From Neobacillus sp. YX16 (GTDB lineage: Bacteria > Bacillota > Bacilli > Bacillales > Cytobacillaceae), in NCBI RefSeq assembly GCF_030123505.1, contig NZ_CP126115.1:5098001-5162000 (forward strand): a stretch of 64,000 nucleotides of DNA. Direction: 5' to 3'. Positions 29,841 to 61,662 of this stretch are shown piece by piece. The notes beneath the pieces were generated by a model. That model made no database searches and was not told where the DNA came from. It saw only the letters and a list, made by a program, of their open reading frames with translations. Every line of letters begins with the position of its first letter. Position 1 is the first letter of the stretch. Both the position numbers and the translations under genes were made by a program.

Positions 29841-30576
29841 AACACACTCCATCCTTTGCAATATGCGTACATGGACATGTTTTACAGCGTTTCGACCCAA
29901 GCTGATACGTAAAACAGCATGTTTTTCTTATCCTTACCTCATCTTGATTATTCTTTTCGGAATAATACTTCTGTATCGGATTTAGGTGATAGCTGCCAAA
30001 CAAGTTACCTTCTGCTTCCATGATTAAGAAACGGAAATCACTTTGTGCATTTGGATTTTCGCTATCCTTTAACTCTGTCTCATACAGCCAAAATAGATAG
30101 ACAGCGATATTTTCCCACAGTATCAGTTTCGAAACCTTAAACGTTTTTTCAAAATGCTCGATAATTGGATAGATGTTGTTTGCAAAAAGGTCACGATAAA
30201 CACTTTTCCGCCATTCATCCCGGTCTTCCCCATTCCATTCCTCGATGGAAGTATCCTTTAATGAAATCATTGGCAGCCAGTCTTTTCCACGTTCCGCTTC
30301 TTCCATTTCAATATTTTCCAAAGTCAATTTCAATTTCTTATTAGCTGTCGTCATCGCAAAAAGGGAAATAACCGCAATAAATGCATAACGCTTAATAAAA
30401 ATGGAGGCTGCTGTTCTTTCTGAAGGCGCACCCATTGATAAAGCTAAATTTTTCATAAAATCAATCGCATATGTCTTTTCTAATAAATTTCCAACGTTAA
30501 ATGATTTACCTGTCTTAGTTCTGAGCCTATATTTCTGTAATGTACTCAGATCATTCTCTATCAGTATATTACCCAT
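29797..30576 (-). CDS. FhuF-like [2Fe-2S] ferric siderophore reductase
   Basis: A 259-residue protein of the siderophore-iron reductase (FhuF) type. The C-terminal cysteine cluster TCCFTYQLGSKRCKTC has the CC-x9-C-x2-C spacing that holds the [2Fe-2S] centre in FhuF. Such enzymes reduce Fe3+-siderophore in the cytoplasm to release iron. The gene overlaps the end of the siderophore ATPase gene by 8 bases and is followed by yusU, all on one transcript. The N-terminal 200 residues are weakly conserved in this family. Confidence 0.85.
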   Translation of the reverse strand: MGNILIENDLSTLQKYRLRTKTGKSFNVGNLLEKTYAIDFMKNLALSMGAPSERTAASIFIKRYAFIAVISLFAMTTANKKLKLTLENIEMEEAERGKDWLPMISLKDTSIEEWNGEDRDEWRKSVYRDLFANNIYPIIEHFEKTFKVSKLILWENIAVYLFWLYETELKDSENPNAQSDFRFLIMEAEGNLFGSYHLNPIQKYYSEKNNQDEVRIRKTCCFTYQLGSKRCKTCPCTHIAKDGVCYDGENICGTVRSVT

Positions 30577-31390
30577 TGGACACGGCCGCCTTTTGAAGGA
30601 TACTTCTTCCTTTTCCGTAAGGAATACAAAGCGGCGTTCCGAATAATGGATCCATTGTTACTTCACAATCCATGCCAAATACATTTTTGACAAGGCTGCG
30701 ATTGATAACATACTCTGGCTTACCTTGGTCATACACCGTCTGATCCTTAAGGGCAACGATATTATGTGCATAGCGGCAAGCCAAATTAAGATCATGAAGT
30801 ACCATTACAACCGTTCTTTTTCTCTTTTCATTAAGCTCGAATAGAAGATCAAGAATTTCAATTTGGTGTGTCATATCTAAATAGGTTGTTGGCTCATCTA
30901 AGAGAATAACATCGGTATCCTGTGCCAAGGTCATAGCAATCCATGCGCGCTGCCTCTGACCCCCTGAAAGAGAATCAACCGTTCGTTCTTTTAAGTCTTC
31001 TAGGCGGGTAGCTTTTAGCGCCGCATTAACCTTTTTCTCATCTTCCTCCGACCATTGTTTTAGCCATGATTGATGTGGATAACGGCCCTGTTTAACGAGT
31101 TGAAGCACCGTCAGCCCTTCAGGAGCAACCGGTGATTGAGGAAGTATCGCCATTTTTTTCGCTACTTCTTTCGTCGAAAGCTTAGCAATGGCTTCGCCAT
31201 CCAAAGTAATGACACCGGATTTTGGCTTAAGAAGACGGGCGATTGAACGAAGGAGGGTTGATTTTCCGCAGCCATTAGCTCCAATAAAAACGGAAATTTC
31301 ACCTTTAGGAATTATTAAATTTAATTCATCAATGATGAGTGTATCCCCGTATGAAAGTGATAAATTTTTCGTTTCAACCGCATTCATCAT
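30569..31390 (-). CDS. yusV: Siderophore ABC transporter ATP-binding protein (YusV-like)
   Basis: A 273-residue ATPase of the iron-siderophore (FecE/FhuC) group. Walker A is GANGCGKST, the signature is LSGGQRQRAW, and Walker B is VILLDEPTTYLD. In B. subtilis YusV is a shared ATPase for several siderophore permeases (Feu, Yfi). Here it is likewise in a separate unit from the permease genes but next to them. The start at 31390 (first of two ATGs) follows AAAGGAGTG. Two Fur boxes lie 140-175 bases upstream. Confidence 0.88.
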   Translation of the reverse strand: MMNAVETKNLSLSYGDTLIIDELNLIIPKGEISVFIGANGCGKSTLLRSIARLLKPKSGVITLDGEAIAKLSTKEVAKKMAILPQSPVAPEGLTVLQLVKQGRYPHQSWLKQWSEEDEKKVNAALKATRLEDLKERTVDSLSGGQRQRAWIAMTLAQDTDVILLDEPTTYLDMTHQIEILDLLFELNEKRKRTVVMVLHDLNLACRYAHNIVALKDQTVYDQGKPEYVINRSLVKNVFGMDCEVTMDPLFGTPLCIPYGKGRSILQKAAVSNG

Positions 31391-31527
31391 CTGCCCACTC
31401 CTTTTGTAATCAATCAAGTATATTGTTAATAAGGCTTGTTTATAGTTTATGATTTACAACCATTTAGTGGCTGTATTTATGTCTTATATAGTATTAATAT
31501 TCTCTACAGTTCTAAGTTTATAATTAA

Positions 31528-31565
31528 TTGATAATGATTGTCAATGAGTATGAAAATCATTTTCA
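31528..31565. promoter_or_regulatory. Two Fur boxes upstream of yusV
   Basis: TGATAATGATTGTCA (31529-31543) has one mismatch to the 7-1-7 Fur core TGATAATNATTATCA. TGAAAATCATTTTCA (31551-31565) is a perfect palindrome with two symmetric changes. They lie in the promoter region of the yusV-fhuF-yusU unit and predict iron repression. Confidence 0.85.
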
Positions 31566-31611
31566 TTTGTATTTACTATTTTGTACACAAAATGTACTTT
31601 CGTTAAAAAAA

Positions 31612-31640
31612 AGAGAAGCCATTTCAAGGGAAATGACTTC
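31612..31640 (-). terminator. Intrinsic terminator after the permease genes
   Basis: On the minus strand GAAGTCATTTCC pairs with GAAATGGCTTC around a short loop, followed by TCTTTTTTTTAACG. It ends the two-permease transcript before the separate yusV unit. Confidence 0.85.
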
Positions 31641-31653
31641 TTTCTTGTGAAAA

Positions 31654-32709
31654 CTAAGTGTTTCTAGTCTTAAATAATAGGTAGATAAAGTATGGTGCCC
31701 CAATACTTGCCGTAAAGACACCCGCCGGAATTTCTAATGGTGAAAATAGTGTTCGCCCAACTAAATCTGCAAGCATGACTAAAATTCCTCCCAGAAGTGC
31801 TGACACAGGCAGTAAAGCTCCAAAGGCAGAACCCACTAATCTCCTAGCCATGTGCGGTGCCATTAAGCCAACAAAACCGATACCGCCAGCGAAAGCTACC
31901 GAACCCCCAACCAAACCGGTACTTAGCAGCATTAATACAAAGCGTTGTTTTTGCACCCGTCCGCCAAGGCCAGTTGCTACTTCATCACCAAGTTCCTGAA
32001 TGTTGATATTTCTTGCATAGATGAATGAAATGAAAACCAGTATGGTTATCCACGGTACAAGGGCACCAACATTTTTCCATGTTGACCCGTAGACTGTGCC
32101 CGTAATCCATATGTTTGCTTGGCTTGCTTGGTAAATAGGACCTAAAACCATCATAAAGGTGGTCAAAGCCTTCGTTAAGCTCATCAAACCAATACCAATC
32201 AAAATAAGTCTAATAGGCGAAACCCCATTTTTCCATGCCAAAATATAAACTAGAAAGGCTACGACAGCCGCACCGATAAAGGCCGCTAAGGGCAACCAAT
32301 GAATACTAACGGTTAATACATGATTTTTATCACTAAAAATTGCCAAGAAACCTACAACCGCAACAGATGCTCCTCCAGTAATCCCTAAGATATCAGGAGA
32401 TGCAAGCGGGTTTCGAATCATTCCTTGTAAAATCCCCCCTGCTACTGCCAGTCCCATCCCTGCCATTAATGCAACAATGATTCTTGGTAATCGGAAGGAT
32501 TGAATGACAAGGGCCTCCATTTCAGATCCACCGCCGAAAAACACCTGCAGGACATTTATAGGGCTGATTTTCATTTCTCCTAATCCCGTACTAATAACAA
32601 AAACAGCTGCGGTTCCAAGTAACAATCCTATAAACACAAATAATGCTTTTTTATCTATTAAATAAGAAACTTTCCCTTGTTTGATTCTAAAGATTTTGTA
32701 TTTACTCAT
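31654..32709 (-). CDS. Iron-siderophore ABC transporter permease (FecCD family, YfhA-like)
   Basis: A 351-residue FecCD/BtuC-type permease with about ten membrane segments. Conserved pieces are RLPRIIVALMAGMGLAVAGG, NPLASPDILGITGGA and GFVGLMAPHMARRL-type (GFVGLMAPHMAR). It forms the channel with the preceding permease. Its start overlaps the upstream permease gene by four bases. The best match by layout is YfhA of the B. subtilis YfiYZ-YfhA hydroxamate siderophore system, but the substrate cannot be read from sequence. Confidence 0.87.
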   Translation of the reverse strand: MSKYKIFRIKQGKVSYLIDKKALFVFIGLLLGTAAVFVISTGLGEMKISPINVLQVFFGGGSEMEALVIQSFRLPRIIVALMAGMGLAVAGGILQGMIRNPLASPDILGITGGASVAVVGFLAIFSDKNHVLTVSIHWLPLAAFIGAAVVAFLVYILAWKNGVSPIRLILIGIGLMSLTKALTTFMMVLGPIYQASQANIWITGTVYGSTWKNVGALVPWITILVFISFIYARNINIQELGDEVATGLGGRVQKQRFVLMLLSTGLVGGSVAFAGGIGFVGLMAPHMARRLVGSAFGALLPVSALLGGILVMLADLVGRTLFSPLEIPAGVFTASIGAPYFIYLLFKTRNT

Positions 32710-33710
32710 CGCCCATTGAACCCCTTTCTAGCAATATAAATGAAAAATGGGGTTCCAATAATCGCCGTCATGACGCCAACTGGGACTTCTTGAGGCATTA
32801 AAATATATCGGGAGGCGATATCTGCAGCGAGTAAAAGCACTCCACCAAGAAGGCCGGAAAAAGGAATGACCCAGCGATGGTCAATTCCCACAATGGAACG
32901 GGTAAGATGTGGTACGACTATTCCAATAAATCCAATTGGTCCTGCAACAGCAACTGCCCCTCCTGATAGCAGGATGACAACGATCCCGATGATTATTTTT
33001 AACAGTGCTGTGTTTAATCCAAGACCTTTGGCAACATCCTCCCCCAAAGATAGGACATTCATTTTTGTTGCTATGACTAAAGAAGATACCCAGCCTACTA
33101 CTAAATAGGGAAGGACAGCAATTAGATTCTCAAGGTTCCTTCCTGCTACTGAACCAGCAAGCCAAAATAATACTTGCTCCAAGGCTGCTTCATTTAAGAC
33201 GAGTATTCCTTGTGTAAAGGAGGCAAATAATGCTGTCATTGCGGCTCCGGCAAGTGTTAGCTTCATGGGTGTTAACCCTTCCCTACCGACCGAGCCTATT
33301 GCATAGACACTTATTGCAGCTACAGCTGCACCAGCAAAGGATAACCAAGTAAATAGTTGAAGACTTCCTACACTAAAGACCGTAACGGCAATGACGACTG
33401 CAACTCCGGCCCCTGCATTGACCCCAAAAATATCAGGGGATGCGAGGGGATTTTTCGTTACTGTCTGCATTAAGACACCTGAAATAGCTAAACTTGCACC
33501 CACCGCAGCAGCAATAAACGCACGCGGGATTCTGACAGATTGAATAACTATATGTTCATTTGAACCATTGAAATTCGTTAAAGCTTCTATAGCCATTTTC
33601 CAAGTAGTATCTGTATACCCGTAGACAATACTTGCTGACATTAAGAAAAGCAATATAATAATAGCAATTAAAAGTCCTGCCCACCTTTGGCCTGTGTGTT
33701 TTAGCAGCAT
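32706..33710 (-). CDS. Iron-siderophore ABC transporter permease (FecCD family, YfiZ-like)
   Basis: A 334-residue FecCD-family permease with about nine or ten membrane segments and the family motifs SVRIPRAFIAAAVGASLA, NPLASPDIFGVNAGAG and GFIGIVVPHLTRS. It is first in the leftward two-permease operon, directly opposite the lipoprotein gene. The Fur boxes at 33809 and 33862 lie before it, so iron repression is expected. Confidence 0.87.
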   Translation of the reverse strand: MLLKHTGQRWAGLLIAIIILLFLMSASIVYGYTDTTWKMAIEALTNFNGSNEHIVIQSVRIPRAFIAAAVGASLAISGVLMQTVTKNPLASPDIFGVNAGAGVAVVIAVTVFSVGSLQLFTWLSFAGAAVAAISVYAIGSVGREGLTPMKLTLAGAAMTALFASFTQGILVLNEAALEQVLFWLAGSVAGRNLENLIAVLPYLVVGWVSSLVIATKMNVLSLGEDVAKGLGLNTALLKIIIGIVVILLSGGAVAVAGPIGFIGIVVPHLTRSIVGIDHRWVIPFSGLLGGVLLLAADIASRYILMPQEVPVGVMTAIIGTPFFIYIARKGFNGR

Positions 33711-33808
33711 AACCTAATTCCCTTCTACCCTAATATATAAAATGCGTCTTTATGTATCTGTATTTTCATGTATCAGTCTATTGGAATAGTGGAAAGCTGT
33801 CAATGAGT

Positions 33809-33823
33809 TGATAATCATTTTCA
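33809..33823. promoter_or_regulatory. Fur box (permease side)
   Basis: TGATAATCATTTTCA, one mismatch from the 7-1-7 Fur core. It lies about 100 bases before the permease start, in the leftward promoter region. Confidence 0.85.
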
Positions 33824-33861
33824 TTTGTAAAAATAAAGCTTCAAAAAATTGTTATTGATTT

Positions 33862-33876
33862 TGATAATCATTTTCA
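33862..33876. promoter_or_regulatory. Fur box (central)
   Basis: A second copy of TGATAATCATTTTCA, ten bases upstream of the -35 element of the rightward promoter. It could serve both divergent promoters. Confidence 0.85.
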
Positions 33877-33885
33877 ATTTCATGA

Positions 33886-33914
33886 TTGACACGCTTGTGA
33901 AATCGTTTTATTAT
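33886..33914 (+). promoter_or_regulatory. Sigma-A promoter of the siderophore lipoprotein gene
   Basis: A consensus TTGACA (33886-33891), a 17-base spacer and TATTAT (33909-33914). The predicted start is near 33921, just before a Fur box. Confidence 0.85.
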
Positions 33915-33925
33915 TAGTTTGTAAA

Positions 33926-33940
33926 TGAAAATGATTATCA
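33926..33940. promoter_or_regulatory. Fur box (lipoprotein side)
   Basis: TGAAAATGATTATCA, one mismatch to the Fur core, placed just downstream of the predicted transcription start. Fur bound here would block the promoter. Confidence 0.87.
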
Positions 33941-33974
33941 TTAACAACAACATTTATTTGGAGGGTTACATAAG

Positions 33975-34967
33975 ATGAAGGGTTTTAAAAATTTATTTGC
34001 AGTCATTTCATTAATTGCTCTTTTCCTTCTTGCTGCCTGTGGTAACACGGAAGAAAAACCGGCCACACAAAAAGAAAATGAGACCAAAACAGAAGACACT
34101 AGCTATACGGTAGAACATGCAATGGGGTCAACGACATTAGAAAAAACGCCTAAAAAGGTCGTTATATTAACAAATGAAGGAACAGAAGCCTTACTTGCAC
34201 TAGGAGTAAAACCAGTTGGTGCCGTTCAATCTTGGCTTGGCGATCCGTGGTATGATCACATCACAAAGGATATGGACGGTGTCGAAGTTGTTGGGGTTGA
34301 GAGTGAAGTAAATTTAGAGAAAATCGCAACTCTTAAACCTGATTTAATTATCGGAAACAAGCTACGTCAAGAAGCTGTCTACAGCCAATTAAGCGCAATA
34401 GCTCCTACTGTTTTTTCCGAAACCCTGAGAGGTGATTGGAAAGAAAACTTTAAACTATACGCAAAAGCATTAAACCTGGAGGAAAAAGGGAATGAGGTAC
34501 TTAGTGATTTTGATGACCACGTTGCGGACGTGAAAGCGAAACTTGGTGATAAAGTAAATCAAGAAGTATCCGTTGTCCGTTTTATGGCCGGAAAATCTCG
34601 TATTTATTATACCGATTCCTTCTCTGGTATTATTTTTGATCAAGTTGGTCTAAAACGAGCTTCGCAACAGGCAGAGCTGTTTACTCCTGATAATAAGCTG
34701 GGTAACCTTGCTATCGAAGTTGGAAAAGAAGTTATTCCGAAAATGGACGGTGACATCCTTTTCTATTTCACATATGCTCCAAAAGGTGATCAAGCAGCCC
34801 TTGATACAGCGAAAGAATGGACAAATGATCCACTTTGGAAAAATTTAAATGCCGTGAAAAATGGAAAAGCCTATGAGGTTAGTGATGCTACTTGGAATAC
34901 AGCTGGCGGCGTTCTTGCTGCAAACATCATGCTGGATGATCTTGAAAAAATCATGCTCGAAAAATAA
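33975..34967 (+). CDS. Iron-siderophore ABC transporter substrate-binding lipoprotein (YfiY-like)
   Basis: A 330-residue class III (FhuD/BtuF-type) binding lipoprotein. The signal peptide ends in the lipobox LLAAC, with C22. The mature domain has EKTPKKVVILTNEGTEALLALG, then the long connecting helix and FDQVGLKRASQ. It catches ferric siderophore outside the cell for the divergent permeases and YusV. GGAGGG lies nine bases before the ATG. Three Fur boxes and a clear promoter precede it. The layout resembles the B. subtilis YfiY hydroxamate system; this is an inference. Confidence 0.88.
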   Translation: MKGFKNLFAVISLIALFLLAACGNTEEKPATQKENETKTEDTSYTVEHAMGSTTLEKTPKKVVILTNEGTEALLALGVKPVGAVQSWLGDPWYDHITKDMDGVEVVGVESEVNLEKIATLKPDLIIGNKLRQEAVYSQLSAIAPTVFSETLRGDWKENFKLYAKALNLEEKGNEVLSDFDDHVADVKAKLGDKVNQEVSVVRFMAGKSRIYYTDSFSGIIFDQVGLKRASQQAELFTPDNKLGNLAIEVGKEVIPKMDGDILFYFTYAPKGDQAALDTAKEWTNDPLWKNLNAVKNGKAYEVSDATWNTAGGVLAANIMLDDLEKIMLEK

Positions 34968-55939: not shown

Positions 55940-56165
55940 ATTAATTTACCAAACCCCATTTTTTATGTCCTAGTAACTATGTATTAACTTTATTATAACA
56001 AATAAGTATCTGATTGTTACTTTTAAGTCTGAATCTTTTTTAAAAAAGATTCATTCTAAAGACCCAGAGGAAATTTCTAATAGCTAGACAGGCAAATTTT
56101 CCAATCCCTTCTCATACATATTCAAAGAGCGTGATTTATCTCGTTATTAATTGGAGGGATTGAAG

Positions 56166-56384
56166 TTGTCAGGAGGCCAAAAAGCACTCTTATACATCTT
56201 GTCTTTTTTCATACCTGTAGTTGGAATCATTCTAGGGATTGTTTGGATGAATGATCAAGATATTGACAAAAAAGCAGTCGGAAAAACTTGTTTAATTATC
56301 GGTATTGTTGCCATTGTCCTTAGTTGTATTTGCTGGTTTGCCGCTTCTGCATTGTCCATTATTCCGGCCTTTATGACGTATTAA
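56166..56384 (+). CDS. Small two-segment membrane protein
   Basis: A 72-residue hydrophobic protein with two membrane segments (residues about 8-28, YILSFFIPVVGIILGIVW, and 40-65, LIIGIVAIVLSCICWF). A short DQDIDKK loop lies between them. The start is taken as TTG at 56166, seven bases after GGAGGG. The family is not recognised. A terminator follows at once. Confidence 0.6.
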   Translation: MSGGQKALLYILSFFIPVVGIILGIVWMNDQDIDKKAVGKTCLIIGIVAIVLSCICWFAASALSIIPAFMTY

Positions 56385-56395
56385 TTTCTAGATAA

Positions 56396-56428
56396 AAACC
56401 CAATTCTTTGGATTGAATTGGGTTTTTT
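56396..56428 (+). terminator. Intrinsic terminator
   Basis: AACCCAATTC pairs with GAATTGGGTT around TTTGGATT, followed by TTTTTT. It ends the small membrane protein gene. Confidence 0.85.
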
Positions 56429-56447
56429 TTGAGTATAGGAGTGATAA

Positions 56448-57092
56448 ATGTTGCTTCATGAAATTCTCCATTTTTTTGGTCGAGCGATATGTCATCAATT
56501 AGAAGATCGATCGCTGCAAGTGTCCGGTAATGCCCTGACAGTTTGCGCAAGAGATACTGGCATTTATATAGGTGTTTTTTCTACACTCATTTATTTACAA
56601 TTTACAAAACGAAAACAAAGTATCACGATTCCCTCTATTAAAGTAAGCTTTGTACTTTTGATGTTCCTTTTTCCATTAATGATAGACGGTCTAGGTTCCT
56701 ATACACATCTATTTGATTCGAATAATCCTCGGAGATTAGTGACGGGAATTGCCTTTGGATTCATTTTGCCTTATTTTATTTACCCTCTCCTCTCGAAAAA
56801 AAATTTTAATCATGAGAGTGTAGCTGTATTAAGCAAAAGTAAGGATTTATTCATTCCACTAATGATAAGTGCATTTTTGGGCGGACTATTTTATTTAGGA
56901 CAACCATCGCATATCGTACTTGACAGCTTTATTATCTTTTCAGTCATCGGATGGTTCAGCCTGTTGTCTTCCTTCCTTTTTCCTTTTATTCGTAAAGCAG
57001 GTTTAAAGTGTGCTCTTTCGATTATGGTCAGTTTAACTTTTCTTTCACTACTTTCTATGGCGCATGCATGGGTTTTATCTTTACCTATATAA
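56448..57092 (+). CDS. DUF2085 membrane protein
   Basis: A 214-residue membrane protein with about six membrane segments. It carries the DUF2085 signature CHQLEDRSL (residues 16-24) followed by CARDTGIYIG, whose two cysteines and histidine suggest a metal or thiol site. PLMIDGLGSYTHLFDSNNPRRLVTG matches the second conserved block. The function is unknown. The ribosome-binding site AGGAGTG precedes the ATG at 56448. Confidence 0.8.
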   Translation: MLLHEILHFFGRAICHQLEDRSLQVSGNALTVCARDTGIYIGVFSTLIYLQFTKRKQSITIPSIKVSFVLLMFLFPLMIDGLGSYTHLFDSNNPRRLVTGIAFGFILPYFIYPLLSKKNFNHESVAVLSKSKDLFIPLMISAFLGGLFYLGQPSHIVLDSFIIFSVIGWFSLLSSFLFPFIRKAGLKCALSIMVSLTFLSLLSMAHAWVLSLPI

Positions 57093-57161
57093 ATTAAAAT
57101 ATTGGTTTGATTTCCCAGTGGGTAAATTCATATAAACGTCAAAATTAGACATTATACTCCA

Positions 57162-57190
57162 TTGACAATGATTCTCATTATCTATAGAAT
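57162..57190 (+). promoter_or_regulatory. Promoter overlapped by a Fur-box-like sequence
   Basis: TTGACA (57162-57167), 17 bases, TAGAAT (57185-57190). The spacer reads ATGATTCTCATTATC, so TGACAATGATTCTCA (57163-57177) matches the Fur core TGATAATNATTATCA with two symmetric changes, and a further ATTATC half-site follows. Fur bound here would cover the promoter. Confidence 0.65.
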
Positions 57191-57229
57191 CAACAATATA
57201 AACAACTTCGGAAATGGGGGATCATCAAT

Positions 57230-57694
57230 ATGTTTAACATGCTATTTGGGTTAAAGGATATTCACACGGTTATTGCCAATCAACGTAAAATCGGTGGTGC
57301 AGCAGAAGCAGACTCTATCCGTCTTTCGTCCGGTGAAACCTATTTAAACCCTGTGTTTACTAATGTTGATTTCTCAAAAGGACAGTATGTATCTGTTGGT
57401 TTTATCGATGAAGAGGGACAAAATATTATTGCCCATGTGGATCAAATTGCGGTTATTAAAGGATTAGAGCATAAATTAATTTGCCAGCTAAATAACGCTT
57501 ATATTAAACAAATGCTAGTTCGTGATACATTACAATATTTACAAAAATTATGTGAAGTAAATGCTGGTTTTGTTACAAAGACCTTCAAAAAAGAAGCATT
57601 AAGACTTGTTCAGGATATTAGTGTGAATGAATTAAATAAGCACAATATCTCACTTCCATTCCCTGTTGAAGATAAAATTGTCAAATTAGCATAA
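57230..57694 (+). CDS. Hypothetical protein, probably iron-regulated
   Basis: A 154-residue soluble protein with no signal peptide and no membrane segment. The first half looks beta-rich (RLSSGETYLNPVFTNVDFSK, ending in IAHVDQIAVI), the second half helical (NNAYIKQMLVRDTLQYLQKL). I do not recognise the family. It has a good ribosome-binding site (GGGGGAT) and lies behind a Fur-box-like promoter, which points to expression under iron limitation. It converges on the encapsulin operon and shares a terminator with it. A link to iron is an inference from context only. Confidence 0.7.
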   Translation: MFNMLFGLKDIHTVIANQRKIGGAAEADSIRLSSGETYLNPVFTNVDFSKGQYVSVGFIDEEGQNIIAHVDQIAVIKGLEHKLICQLNNAYIKQMLVRDTLQYLQKLCEVNAGFVTKTFKKEALRLVQDISVNELNKHNISLPFPVEDKIVKLA

Positions 57695-57696
57695 AC

Positions 57697-57728
57697 AAAA
57701 CGAGGTCCTGGGAAATGGACCTCGTTTT
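57697..57728. terminator. Bidirectional terminator
   Basis: AAAACGAGGTCC pairs perfectly with GGACCTCGTTTT around TGGGAAAT, with T's on the plus strand and A's giving T's on the minus strand. It ends both the unknown gene and the encapsulin operon. Confidence 0.85.
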
Positions 57729-57752
57729 TTTGTTGGCTGTTATTTAGTATTC

Positions 57753-58100
57753 TTAAAGAATTTCTGTCTGGCAAGCCAATCTATATCCGGCAGTGAGTGC
57801 ATTCTTCAGCTTTTTCTGCTCCAGCTCGTTCGGAGCTGATAGCCCAGGACCTTTTATTACTTTGACTGTACACTGTCCGCATGTTCCTTTACGGCATTTA
57901 TAATTGATTTGCTTCCCTTGATCCAGGGCTGCATCCAAAAGTTTTCCTTTTACATGGTGAATTTCGATTTTACTGCCGTTTTGCTCTACGATGATTTCTT
58001 CTATTTTGTTTTTTTTGTTATCGGTCGGTTCTGAAGTCTGCGGTTTTACTATCAGCCTTCCTGGTATTAGTGAACCTACTGTGAATACGCGACTATTCAT
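57753..58100 (-). CDS. Encapsulin-associated [2Fe-2S] ferredoxin with N-terminal targeting peptide
   Basis: A 115-residue plant-type ferredoxin. Cluster ligands are C69, C74, C77 (CRKGTCGQC) and C110 (LACQ), with C-x4-C-x2-C spacing. Before the domain is a tail, MNSRVFTVGSLIPGRL, holding FTVGSLI, the same peptide that ends the IMEF cargo. The ferredoxin is thus probably encapsulated or docked inside the shell, perhaps to feed electrons that release stored iron. The start at 58100 shares one base with the encapsulin stop (TAATG), so translation is coupled. An upstream in-frame start lies inside the encapsulin gene and is unlikely. Confidence 0.88.
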   Translation of the reverse strand: MNSRVFTVGSLIPGRLIVKPQTSEPTDNKKNKIEEIIVEQNGSKIEIHHVKGKLLDAALDQGKQINYKCRKGTCGQCTVKVIKGPGLSAPNELEQKKLKNALTAGYRLACQTEIL

Positions 58101-58948
58101 TAGTCCCCCATTGACTCCAACGTACAAATGGCTGAAGGACGTTTAATTCGTAAAACGATTGTTTCATAAACACGGAAAGGATGATTCATCCCTTCTACCC
58201 CCAAGTAAGCAGTATCAAAATCCTCTGATATAGCAAGATCTAAATTATTTTTCCCTGTATTAACAAGCACACCTGATTTTCCTTTTAAAACAGGAGATTG
58301 GAACACACCATCAGTAACTAATTCACGAATATGTTCAATTTCTAATACATTTGTATCACGGTGGACACGATGGATAAGTGAATATAATTGTGGTGAAAGT
58401 ACAAGTGCAAATGGTCCATTGTGATTCATCTCAAGCAGCTTATTCCTTGCATCAACAATATCCTGAAAGGCATTTCCAGATTCAAACCATTCACCAATTA
58501 AGTGTGTTAATCGGCCAGGTACATTCATTAAACCAGGAATATCAAATTCCCTGGTACCATGGAAGATCATTTGGTCTTCTAGTATCGCCACATCACGTGC
58601 TGCATTGGCTGCGGCTGAAAAATCTATAGGGATATCTAATACCTTTGCCTGATCTATATCACGCCAATATAATACGAAGTCTTTATAAAGCATAGGAATG
58701 GTATAGTTAACCCTTTTACTATTCTCAATATCCGTATCAAAGGACCCCTGAAAATCCATTTTTGCTTCTAAATTTTCTGCAAAGATATCATTAAAGATAC
58801 TTTGGACTCCTCTTCCAAGCGGACCGTATAGTTCAATAAAACGGCGCCCGACCAATTGCCTTCTTGCTGCATCAATAACGGTTTGATCCAACTGAGTAAA
58901 TTCTTGGTTTGATAATGGTGAATCCGGGTATAATTGTATTTTATTCAT
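58100..58948 (-). CDS. Encapsulin shell protein (family 1, HK97 fold)
   Basis: A 282-residue encapsulin (older name: linocin-M18 bacteriocin family). It has DAARRQLVGRRFIELYGPLG near residue 25, the E-loop/P-domain regions, and the conserved ending NHPFRVYETIVLRIKRPSAI. Subunits self-assemble to an icosahedral protein shell around cargo carrying targeting peptides. IMEF-linked encapsulins of this length form large T=4 shells (about 42 nm) in Quasibacillus thermotolerans; a T=4 shell here is inferred. It lies 20 bases after the cargo gene and overlaps the ferredoxin gene. Confidence 0.93.
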   Translation of the reverse strand: MNKIQLYPDSPLSNQEFTQLDQTVIDAARRQLVGRRFIELYGPLGRGVQSIFNDIFAENLEAKMDFQGSFDTDIENSKRVNYTIPMLYKDFVLYWRDIDQAKVLDIPIDFSAAANAARDVAILEDQMIFHGTREFDIPGLMNVPGRLTHLIGEWFESGNAFQDIVDARNKLLEMNHNGPFALVLSPQLYSLIHRVHRDTNVLEIEHIRELVTDGVFQSPVLKGKSGVLVNTGKNNLDLAISEDFDTAYLGVEGMNHPFRVYETIVLRIKRPSAICTLESMGD

Positions 58949-58968
58949 TGGTTTATCCTCTCTTTTCC

Positions 58969-59541
58969 TTAGATTAAGCTTCCCACCGTAAAGCCCCTTC
59001 TCTGTATAGTTTGAGGAGCAGCTTGTCTAACTACTGTTTCAGTTCCTGATCGGTCTAAATGGTCATGTTCCTCATCGTGATGGGCATGTGGGTCTACATA
59101 ATTGGTATCAAATCGACTGTTAATTTCAATTAACATTTGTTTTACCTGCTGATAATCCTTATACGAAACTTCCCTTAAGCTATTTAACAAGCTGCTCCGC
59201 TCTTCATCTGTAAAGCGAAAGAGTGCTAAATCTAAGTGTTCGACGAAATTATGTAATCCGAATTTTTCGAGGTTAAGTTCCTGTAAAAGCCGGTTAAATT
59301 CATTGTTGGTTGGTGAAAACTCTGCCTCATTCTTCACTTGTTGAAATTTACTAATAAGCGGAATCAAGACAACTAATCGAGAAAGCCGCTGTTCTTCCTC
59401 TTCGTAAATATGGTGATAATATAGTCTCTCGTGTTCATCTTCAGCATTTTGAATGACCGGGTCGAGCATATTCATAAATTTTTCAATTGCATCTTTGGTG
59501 GTTGTAAATATTTGATAAAATATCTTTAATTCTTCTTGCAC
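58969..59541 (-). CDS. IMEF-type encapsulated iron-mineralising cargo protein
   Basis: A 190-residue ferritin-like cargo protein of the iron-mineralizing encapsulin-associated Firmicute (IMEF) type. A helical bundle spans about 1-145. Candidate metal ligands include the dense ERLYYHHIYEEEEQRL (38-53), and a His/Asp-rich linker lies at 150-163 (DPHAHHDEEHDHLD). The last seven residues, FTVGSLI, are the encapsulin-targeting peptide. IMEF oxidises ferrous iron so it is stored as mineral in the shell. The start is GTG at 59541 after AGGAGGTG. It is the first gene of the operon. Confidence 0.9.
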   Translation of the reverse strand: MQEELKIFYQIFTTTKDAIEKFMNMLDPVIQNAEDEHERLYYHHIYEEEEQRLSRLVVLIPLISKFQQVKNEAEFSPTNNEFNRLLQELNLEKFGLHNFVEHLDLALFRFTDEERSSLLNSLREVSYKDYQQVKQMLIEINSRFDTNYVDPHAHHDEEHDHLDRSGTETVVRQAAPQTIQRRGFTVGSLI

Positions 59542-59585
59542 TGCCGCACCTCCTAATACTCATTACCTGTCATTATTGACGTGGA

Positions 59586-59614
59586 ATTCTATTTCTAAAA
59601 CCTTTACGTTACAA
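59586..59614 (-). promoter_or_regulatory. Candidate sigma-A promoter of the encapsulin operon
   Basis: On the minus strand TTGTAA (59614-59609), a 17-base spacer and TAGAAT (59591-59586), 45 bases before the cargo start. No Fur or PerR box is evident near it. Confidence 0.6.
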
Positions 59615-59703
59615 TCTTTTGAAGAAATTGTTATTGTGAATAACTCCGGTTAATTGATACATAATAACTATGGCTAATATCAATCACTTAGGAGGAGAAG
59701 AAT

Positions 59704-60396
59704 ATGATGCAAAACCAGCAAGGACAGCAAGGGCAAATGCACCAAAATATGCATACGGGTAATGTCCCTCCGCAACTGAATCATGGGGGCCACGAGGTAA
59801 TTGACTTAAATGAGGTTTTAGGAGCAGCTATTGGCACAATGAATTCATACATGTTATTACGCCAGCATGTAAAGGATCCAGAATTACTGGATATTCTGGA
59901 TCGCCAATATAAATTTATGCAGGACGAATACAACATCACTGTGGAGTGTTTCAAAACCGGACAAAATCCTTCCCATCCTACTTCAAGATATATGATGAAC
60001 CAAGGGAATGACTTTATCTATGGGATGAAGCAAACTCAGCCAAAGAAACCTTGGCAATCCGTATCCGAAATTAATGATGAATACATTTCAAGCTGTTTGT
60101 TAGCTTCCTGTAAATCTGGTGCTTCGATGAAAACGATGGCAGCGCTAGAAACAACCAACCCAGTTGTTCGCCGTGTATTGGCTGATTCCATTCCAAACTG
60201 TATTGAAATGGGTTATGAACTCTCTATTTATCAAAATAAACATCATTACTACCAAGTACCGCAGCTTGCTGAGCAGGATATGAATACTTACAGAAATTCT
60301 TTTACCACAACACAGGGGTCATCAATGGGACAAAATATGGGCCAAACACAAATGCCTAATAACAATATGAATATGAACAATAATATGCCGCATTAA
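59704..60396 (+). CDS. Spore coat protein, CotF-like
   Basis: A 230-residue protein with a Coat_F-type helical domain (about 35-115: DLNEVLGAAIGTMNSYMLLR, EYNITVECFKTG). A second related helical block follows (125-190, NDEYISSCLLASCKSGASMK). Both ends are rich in Gln, Asn and Met (N-terminal QQGQQGQMHQNMH, C-terminal NNNMNMNNNMPH), as in coat proteins. It is probably made in the mother cell and laid on the spore. AGGAGGAG precedes two adjacent ATGs. It is divergent from the encapsulin operon. Confidence 0.82.
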   Translation: MMQNQQGQQGQMHQNMHTGNVPPQLNHGGHEVIDLNEVLGAAIGTMNSYMLLRQHVKDPELLDILDRQYKFMQDEYNITVECFKTGQNPSHPTSRYMMNQGNDFIYGMKQTQPKKPWQSVSEINDEYISSCLLASCKSGASMKTMAALETTNPVVRRVLADSIPNCIEMGYELSIYQNKHHYYQVPQLAEQDMNTYRNSFTTTQGSSMGQNMGQTQMPNNNMNMNNNMPH

Positions 60397-60408
60397 ATTT
60401 TAAGAAAG

Positions 60409-60437
60409 CTATCCTTTCATTCATATATGAAGGATAG
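60409..60437 (+). terminator. Intrinsic terminator after the coat gene
   Basis: CTATCCTT pairs with AAGGATAG around a 13-base loop, followed by TTTTTTTG. Confidence 0.8.
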
Positions 60438-60540
60438 TTTTTTTGTTCATATTTGAAAAATATTACATTAAATAATGCAATAGAAACAGAACGTGCGTTC
60501 TTGTTTAATTAAGATAGGGATTTTATGAGGAGTGATTCAA

Positions 60541-60834
60541 ATGGAAAGTTGGGAAGCTGCATATATTGCAGGAATTATTGATGGGGAGGGATCCATTTCA
60601 TTAACTAGAATGCATGAATGCGAACATCGACGTCCTTGCATATCCATTGCTTCAACAGATAAAGAACTATTAATTTACATTCAGTCCCTATCAGGAGGAA
60701 CAATCAATAATAAAAAGAATTACAATCCTGATAAACATAAGGATTCATTTACATTAAATATAAAGAATAAAATATTATACAACCTACTTCGTTCTATTGC
60801 TACTTCATCAAGATTTAGGAAATTGTTTAAGTGA
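60541..60834 (+). CDS. LAGLIDADG-type homing endonuclease, truncated
   Basis: A 97-residue product. AAYIAGIIDGEGSISLTR (residues 5-22) is a single LAGLIDADG motif (AGIIDGEGS). The core continues RRPCISIASTDKELLIYIQSL and stops shortly after FTLNIKNKILYNLL. Typical single-motif members run to 120-170 residues, so the C-terminal part appears lost. The start at 60541 follows GAGGAG by eight bases. It is not inside an obvious intron or intein, so it is probably a stray remnant. Confidence 0.7.
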   Translation: MESWEAAYIAGIIDGEGSISLTRMHECEHRRPCISIASTDKELLIYIQSLSGGTINNKKNYNPDKHKDSFTLNIKNKILYNLLRSIATSSRFRKLFK

Positions 60835-60892
60835 TCCAATTTCTCAATAGTATTCATTCAATCACCATTCTATCTTTTTTAGAAGGATTTTT

Positions 60893-61662
60893 TTAAAGAT
60901 CTGTCCCTGTTTTATCCCTCTTTGGCTTTCTTTCTCCTGGACGATTATTAGTAGTCCTTTTACTATCTTCCTTTTCCTCTGCCTCGTCTAACTTTAACCA
61001 ACTATTTAGCATTTGCTCCTTTTCTTCTGTTTTTTGATTAAGCTGGGTTTCTCCTCTAGTAATTTCTTCAGCCATAATATATGCTTGGTCAATTGTTGGT
61101 TCATACTTTTTAAAATCGTTCAAGACCAGTGTTTTTGTTTCCTCATTTCTCCTCATTTTAGTATTAAAAGTGTTATTCAACCACTCCTTAAGAGTACCGA
61201 CACATCCAATAGTGTGTAAATAGAAATATTTCCATTCACTTACAAGATCAGGTTCTTCATGTAAGGGAAAAGCTTTTTGAAAATACCAAAGGGCATATTT
61301 GAAAGCTTTAATATCATCCTGTTCGTCGGAGTCATATCTAGAAAAATGAACCTCTGTAGTTCTCCTTCCCAATTGCCCGTTTATATTTCTAAAGCTTAAT
61401 AACTCATAAGTTCCAAATAATATTATTGGACCCCGAATTTTGAGGCTAATGATTTTATAGAATCCATATGGTTTCTTAATCCCTTTGAACTTCCAACTTT
61501 AGTCATATGCTGTGCTTCATCAAGTAATATAACTTTAACCTTTCGACCTTTAATTGCACTTTCCAAAGCATTCCGTAATTTTCGTTTTGTTTTTTCATTA
61601 GAATTATTTGGAACATTTACACCTACCTCATCTAATGAAAATCTTTTTTCTTTTAATGGCAA
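60893..61662 (-). pseudogene. Frameshifted TnsC/TniB-type transposition ATPase remnant
   Basis: Two minus-strand fragments join into one protein. The first (61662-61423) contains the Walker B stretch KVKVILLDEAQHMTKVGSSK and SIKSLASKFG. The second, in another frame, continues with GPIILFGTYELLSFRNINGQ and RRTTEVHFSRYDSDE. This LFGTYELL...RNxxGQL.RR...HF.RY pattern is that of TnsC/TniB AAA+ ATPases of Tn7-like transposons. The reading frame is broken near 61420. The N-terminal Walker A part is missing. No transposase genes are nearby. Confidence 0.75.

Follow-up and report, generated by a model that had tools for sequence, protein, structure and literature searches.

A gene that we call CN accompanies the IMEF-type encapsulin operon of Neobacillus sp. 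YX16 in the window analysed here, a stretch of 64,000 nucleotides (contig NZ_CP126115.1, positions 5,098,001 to 5,162,000), and we consider its product, with high confidence, a dedicated partner of the IMEF iron store. CN is convergent with the operon and lies just downstream of it; it is absent from the original prediction for this DNA, which was made from the sequence alone and described only the storage genes. The direct support consists of gene content, co-occurrence, co-decay and Fur-type sequence, presented below together with the possible role of CN in recovering stored iron.

The operon itself (57753-59541, minus strand) is, practically beyond doubt from its sequence, an IMEF iron-storage encapsulin operon, and taken alone it adds one more copy to a known system. 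The original prediction had proposed three tightly packed minus-strand genes with the layout of the Quasibacillus thermotolerans system; all three were found at these positions, and the cargo, shell and ferredoxin families, the gene order and the targeting peptide agree with that system. The cargo gene (58969..59541, minus strand) starts with a GTG at 59541, preceded 7 nt upstream by AGGAGG, stops at 58969 and encodes an IMEF ferritin-like protein of 190 aa. Its C-terminus, RRGFTVGSLI, ends as predicted in the targeting peptide FTVGSLI (58972..58992, minus strand), which is identical on the Q. thermotolerans cargo. Compared with IMEF proteins, the cargo matches two curated models above cut-off, Pfam IMEF_Flp (PF24309, 1.4e-54) and NCBIfam TIGR04536 (1.4e-74), and a comparison with solved structures in the PDB at a limit of E 1 gave a single match, the IMEF cargo of Q. 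thermotolerans (6n63, 1.8e-79), with the segments HERLYYHHIYEEEEQRL and EKFGLHNF.EH common to both. Residues H37, H43, H44, E47-E49, H97, E101 and H102 are invariant across 14 aligned relatives, and the ferroxidase-type His/Glu of helices 2 and 3 are kept in the comparison with 6n63, which did not single out ligand positions.

The shell gene (58100..58948, minus strand) encodes the expected family 1 encapsulin of 282 residues (NCBIfam encap_f1, NF041155, 5.5e-87). When it was compared with solved shells, including those of IMEF systems, the best match was 9fy6 (5e-170) and the second best the T=4 shell 6nj8 (9.2e-167), while EncA and the other non-T=4 shells listed matched at 1e-85 or weaker; judged by similarity rather than by a tree, the sequence is that of a T=4-type shell. 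The protein is 84-86% identical to the shell of B. thermotolerans SGZ-8 and is the single shell match in the 6.23-Mb genome; shell copies on plasmids came to 45 records, every one below 60% identity. In some relatives the cargo and shell genes are separated by gaps of about 200-300 bp that may hold an extra gene. The predicted store would combine a ferroxidase cargo of the ferritin-like type with the [2Fe-2S] ferredoxin, both carrying a TVGSL targeting peptide, within a T=4-type shell, which in IMEF systems has 240 subunits, measures 42 nm and encloses an iron core. Beyond the operon, the genome encodes three PF00210 proteins that are Dps-like, their best NCBIfam models being Dps models, all under the curated cut-offs; the one compared with the PDB matched best Dlp-1, in addition to Dps proteins.

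CN occupies positions 57230..57694 on the plus strand and encodes a protein of 154 aa. Between it and the ferredoxin gene lies a hairpin of 12 pairs resembling a bidirectional terminator (57697..57728). To follow CN outside the window, we confirmed 90 IMEF loci and kept the best 80 named ones with flanks of up to 4 kb; CN was found within 4 kb in 77 of the 80. When open reading frames (ORFs) of at least 60 aa were clustered, the cargo was present in 80 of these loci, the shell in 79, CN in 77 and the ferredoxin in 73; the next cluster, in 34 loci, is antisense to the shell, judging by its one example. In one of the three loci missed (L089), the cargo copy (in G048) has an in-frame stop and no shell is nearby; in another (L104), CN is about 6 kb away (G065:C125); the last (L145) is on a 13-kb metagenome contig. 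A CN gene 69% identical to that of the window adjoins the operon of B. thermotolerans SGZ-8 (L097), the PB1 genome of Bacillus methanolicus (L087) likewise carries cargo, shell and CN, and at distant loci, where identity falls to about 30-44%, CN often lies between shell and ferredoxin on the opposite strand.

The association extends to whole genomes in three partly overlapping samples, of relatives (120 genomes), the order (348) and the class (398). Among the relatives, the cargo was found in 32 genomes and CN in 30, with both looking intact in 29, including G119, whose cargo match is weak (E 1.2e-6). The cargo-only genomes have short fragments (G014, G030) or a cargo with an in-frame stop (G048), and the CN-only genome (G001) has a 72-residue CN fragment with two stops. 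In the order sample, CN occurred in 27 genomes and the cargo in 28. Of these 28, we excluded three whose cargo matches (E 3-5e-4) fall within frames 382-583 aa long; the remaining 25 all have CN, and in the two genomes with CN only (G119, G290) a shell and a divergent cargo adjoin CN. In the class sample, CN was found in 51 genomes, among them all 50 with a TIGR04536 cargo (47 over the curated cut-off and three weak ones included); the remaining one (G426) has a shell and an ORF with a VGSL tail. Fisher tests, which ignore kinship, gave p values of 4e-36 in the order sample after exclusions and 4e-63 in the class sample.

Linkage alone is not sufficient to account for the association of CN with the store, because in G536 the two are on different contigs, CN lying some 75 kb inside its own 192-kb contig as counted from the closer end; moreover, CN is 6-10 kb from the cargo in G594, G736, G760 and G768, and in Aneurinibacillus danicus (L151) it lies upstream on the same strand. 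As CN is present with an IMEF-type store, absent without one and decays with the store in the sampled genomes, it belongs to the system. The possibility that CN is an unrelated iron-starvation gene hitch-hiking beside the operon is therefore very improbable: although CN is mostly only convergent with the storage genes and not co-transcribed with them, it is retained when unlinked (G536) or rearranged (L151), it has disappeared or decayed in genomes without the store, and none was found in the IMEF-less genomes of the three samples save the remnant in G001.

Several variants of the locus deserve a separate description. Decayed cargo or CN remnants occur in G001 (L167), G014 (L071), G030 (L072) and G048 (L051/L089), all of one genus, a sign that the system has been lost more than once; a CotF-like gene is still beside the remnants in L071 and L072. 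L164, L165 and L166 (G119, G264, G290) combine an IMEF-type shell with a cargo ending in FSVGSLL(E), of 169 aa in L164 and L166, in which most of the conserved His/Glu are lost; CN and a 16/19 Fur box are retained beside this store-like shell, whose cargo is possibly not a ferroxidase. L187 (G477) and L189 (G426) have IMEF-type shells 54% and 51% identical to that of the window and retain CN, and the last 100 or so residues of the frame before the shell read as a half-size cargo ending in LTVGSLIQY or LSVGSLVIY.

The CN family, searched with 26 members, has no credible match in Pfam (E 5), NCBIfam (E 1) or PHROGs (E 1; 25 of 37 families listed), and none to an Hfq/LSm sequence family in the same searches. 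Its predicted structure (AlphaFold2, predicted local distance difference test 90.4) consists of an N-terminal helix and a small beta-barrel over residues 6-83, followed by helices at 90-137 and a variable tail. The fold of the N-terminal part is modestly supported as Hfq/LSm-like. The linker is variable and the hydrophobic-Ala terminus conserved, with 91 of 100 CN proteins ending in [IFLYH]A. The C-terminal tail was considered as a candidate targeting peptide or degron. A PDB sequence search with the CN profile returned mainly designed TPR proteins over residues 81-115, which we judged a chance similarity of helices. No RNA family reached the gathering level of Rfam in 56000-61500.

CN has its own predicted promoter, TTGACA-17 bp-TAGAAT (57162..57190, plus strand, 11/12), the top one of 11 promoter-like sites in 57000-59800, a number for which shuffled sequence gives 10.2. 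Inside it lies a Fur box (57164..57182, minus strand) matching 17 of the 19 positions of the consensus printed in PMC7762939. It is among only six loci of the genome at no more than two mismatches; at up to three, the two strands give 13 and 16 matches and the reversed-pattern control 0 and 2. Pfam domains beside four of the other five best boxes are imelysin/M75, an ABC ATPase with a divergent pyridine-nucleotide oxidoreductase, and two Peripla_BP_2; we read the imelysin/M75, ABC ATPase and Peripla_BP_2 neighbours as probable iron-uptake genes. Elsewhere in the window, a Peripla_BP_2/FecCD/ABC ATPase transporter, siderophore-type by its families (30569-34967), has Fur-like sites at 31529-31565 and 33809-33946.

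The Fur box is a general feature of CN. In a set of upstream regions from 100 CN loci, four of them fetched twice, a box of at least 15/19 was found upstream of CN in 89 (86 of 96 without repeats), with dinucleotide shuffles giving 0.75%; it was present in 44 of 44 near relatives and 45 of 56 distant ones. The same threshold gave 8 of 99 for the cargo, 0 of 101 for the shell, 19 of 78 for the ferredoxin and 15 of 260 for the remaining ORFs of 150 aa or more in the CN loci, where the upstream region scanned may in some cases run into the CN box. All 19 ferredoxin boxes fall in the 24 loci (three of them repeats) in which ferredoxin and CN diverge from a common intergenic region, and 23 of the 24 reach at least 14/19; the ferredoxins inside the operon (43 loci) have none. 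Results therefore make Fur control of CN very probable. From its own Fur-boxed promoter, CN would be expected to be silent when iron is plentiful and expressed in starvation, the reverse of what a storage gene should show. Induction in starvation together with CN is also predicted for the ferredoxin in many lineages, while the storage genes mostly are not. As to the storage genes, a sigma-B-like site with at most one mismatch precedes the cargo in 24 of 99 cases (L127, L131 and L139, for example), where mononucleotide shuffles predict 3.7, and it was found before CN in 0 of 100 and before the shell in 2 of 101; the close relative L081 has two mismatches. In some lineages, general stress control may extend to storage.

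The third gene of the operon encodes the predicted [2Fe-2S] ferredoxin, a plant-type protein of 115 aa (57753..58100, minus strand; Pfam Fer2, PF00111, 5e-14). Its ATG at 58100 overlaps the shell stop by one base (TAATG) and the gene ends at 57753; the 124-aa form with a TTG start in the ORF list extends back into the shell gene. The ferredoxin starts with a targeting peptide of its own, MNSRVFTVGSLI, whose FTVGSLI at residues 6-12 (58065..58085, minus strand) is the second of the locus and was missing from the original prediction. A [TS][VI][GS]SL motif is present within the first 20 residues in 75 of 78 ferredoxins (4 of the 78 from loci fetched twice), in agreement with the N-terminal targeting motif already published for the IMEF ferredoxin in the parts seen of PMC8346489 and PMC11202242. 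The four cluster Cys are invariant in 14 of 14 aligned proteins. The main text of the eLife paper terms this ferredoxin Bfd-homologous (PMC6668986), but the family search did not support this, and we rejected it: the window protein and 13 relatives all match Fer2 PF00111 (six of them also, weakly, Fer2_3) and no other family at E 0.01, Fer2_BFD (PF04324) included. In the genome, Fer2_BFD is confined to three open frames of 795-812 aa. The IMEF ferredoxin should accordingly not carry the label of a Bfd homologue. At L191 (G000:C1:5358865), one of the six best Fur boxes lies between the ABC ATPase and the pyridine-nucleotide oxidoreductase mentioned above; the latter, by eye ferredoxin-NADP-reductase-like, is a possible electron donor for the encapsulin ferredoxin.

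A store partner made in starvation is best explained as withdrawing iron; Fur control, starvation induction, an action on the shell and release are what we infer. CN, a small protein resembling an Sm barrel, would be made in iron starvation from its Fur-boxed promoter and would have the shell as its target, which it might dock to, gate or disassemble; in stores with an encapsulated ferredoxin, the latter would pass electrons inward and reduce the ferric core, and the reduced iron would return to the cell. That CN makes the store release iron, rather than serving another role in starvation, is about an even bet. A more specific form of this reading is more tentative: CN would be the first release factor dedicated to an encapsulin iron store, Fur-derepressed, Sm-like and perhaps assembled into rings, and by binding to the T=4 shell in starvation it would cause the shell to open or come apart. 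CN persists with cargoes lacking H37, H43, H44, E47, E48, E50, H97 and E101 (L164, L166), and its action therefore more likely concerns the shell. The ferredoxin-dependent version of the release mechanism is weakened by the ferredoxin-less loci, 23 in the upstream-region set: of 14 CN genomes followed that have no ferredoxin by the store, four have an unlinked ferredoxin with a targeting peptide but without a Fur box, and in the other ten no targeting-peptide ferredoxin was seen at E 1e-8, the match L226 being readable only in part.

Other roles in starvation would not involve release. CN might be an iron-sparing, Sm-like RNA-binding regulator under Fur control that, when iron is short, stops production from the storage operon, or prevents assembly or loading, without release, which we consider rather unlikely, or a structural or assembly component, such as a capsomer-bound ring or a minor shell protein, fitting or remodelling shells in starvation, which is less likely again. 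A structural role would suit an association that follows the shell and not the type of cargo, as well as the variable linker with its conserved hydrophobic-Ala end. However, as described in the main text of PMC6668986, the cargo and shell genes of Q. thermotolerans sufficed for assembly and iron mineralisation in E. coli, so that CN was not needed for assembly there, and an assembly factor made at the time of starvation is hard to justify. Release of iron remains our preferred explanation.

CN as an IMEF companion is apparently unreported in the open full-text literature, supplements being outside this scope. A previous description of CN and its regulation, such as one in an operon figure or supplement of an IMEF paper, would be compatible with the other readings but is improbable. 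The literature comparison rests on main-text parts, and the operon chart of the eLife paper is a figure supplement; yet in the main-text parts of PMC6668986, PMC8346489, PMC11202242, PMC7762939 and PMC6934571, ferredoxin and ferrochelatase are the only extra members of IMEF operons named, and the CN relatives listed (89, then 120 of 256) are labelled hypothetical or uncharacterized, save one 'HKD family nuclease' (P0036). Encapsulin iron stores are described as the largest protein-based ones known (PMC8346489, in part), and in the parts seen of two reviews the recovery of their iron is an open question (PMC11202242, PMC7762939), its release being yet to be shown according to the 2024 one (PMC11202242). 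CN, found with nearly every intact IMEF system sampled, co-decaying with it and Fur-boxed, offers a single testable target for this question, and with it the composition of the system grows from two or three genes to four.

Upstream of the operon and divergent from it, a gene for a CotF-domain protein (59704..60396, plus strand) was considered as a member of the system, with a link to sporulation, and rejected: it is present in only 15 of the 80 named IMEF loci, all with a cargo at least 72% identical to that of the window. Between it and a cation-efflux-like gene, a LAGLIDADG-type ORF fragment and short ORFs that by eye are transposon-like (60532-61662) look like a degraded mobile element.

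Among known systems, the closest is the IMEF system of Q. thermotolerans (6NJ8, 6N63), with the same cargo, shell and ferredoxin families, gene order and targeting peptide; neither CN nor a Fur box is named in the parts seen of the published text on the former. The two are also alike in that the ferritin-like proteins of the genome are Dps-like only, the usual situation of IMEF genomes according to the main text of PMC6668986. Bacterioferritin with Bfd resembles the IMEF store in its release logic, as a store plus a [2Fe-2S] protein that is separately regulated in many lineages, but the ferredoxin of the window type is Fer2 PF00111 and not Fer2_BFD. We know of no CN counterpart in bacterioferritin/Bfd systems. 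With the small barrels of Hfq/LSm, CN would have in common the predicted N-terminal helix and small beta-barrel of residues 6-83, while it differs in its C-terminal helices at 90-137, its variable tail and the lack of a match to the sequence family. Finally, the Fur-controlled FsrA iron-sparing response of Bacillus subtilis likewise relies on a Fur-repressed factor acting in iron shortage, whereas CN is a protein and, in the samples, is limited to carriers of the IMEF store.
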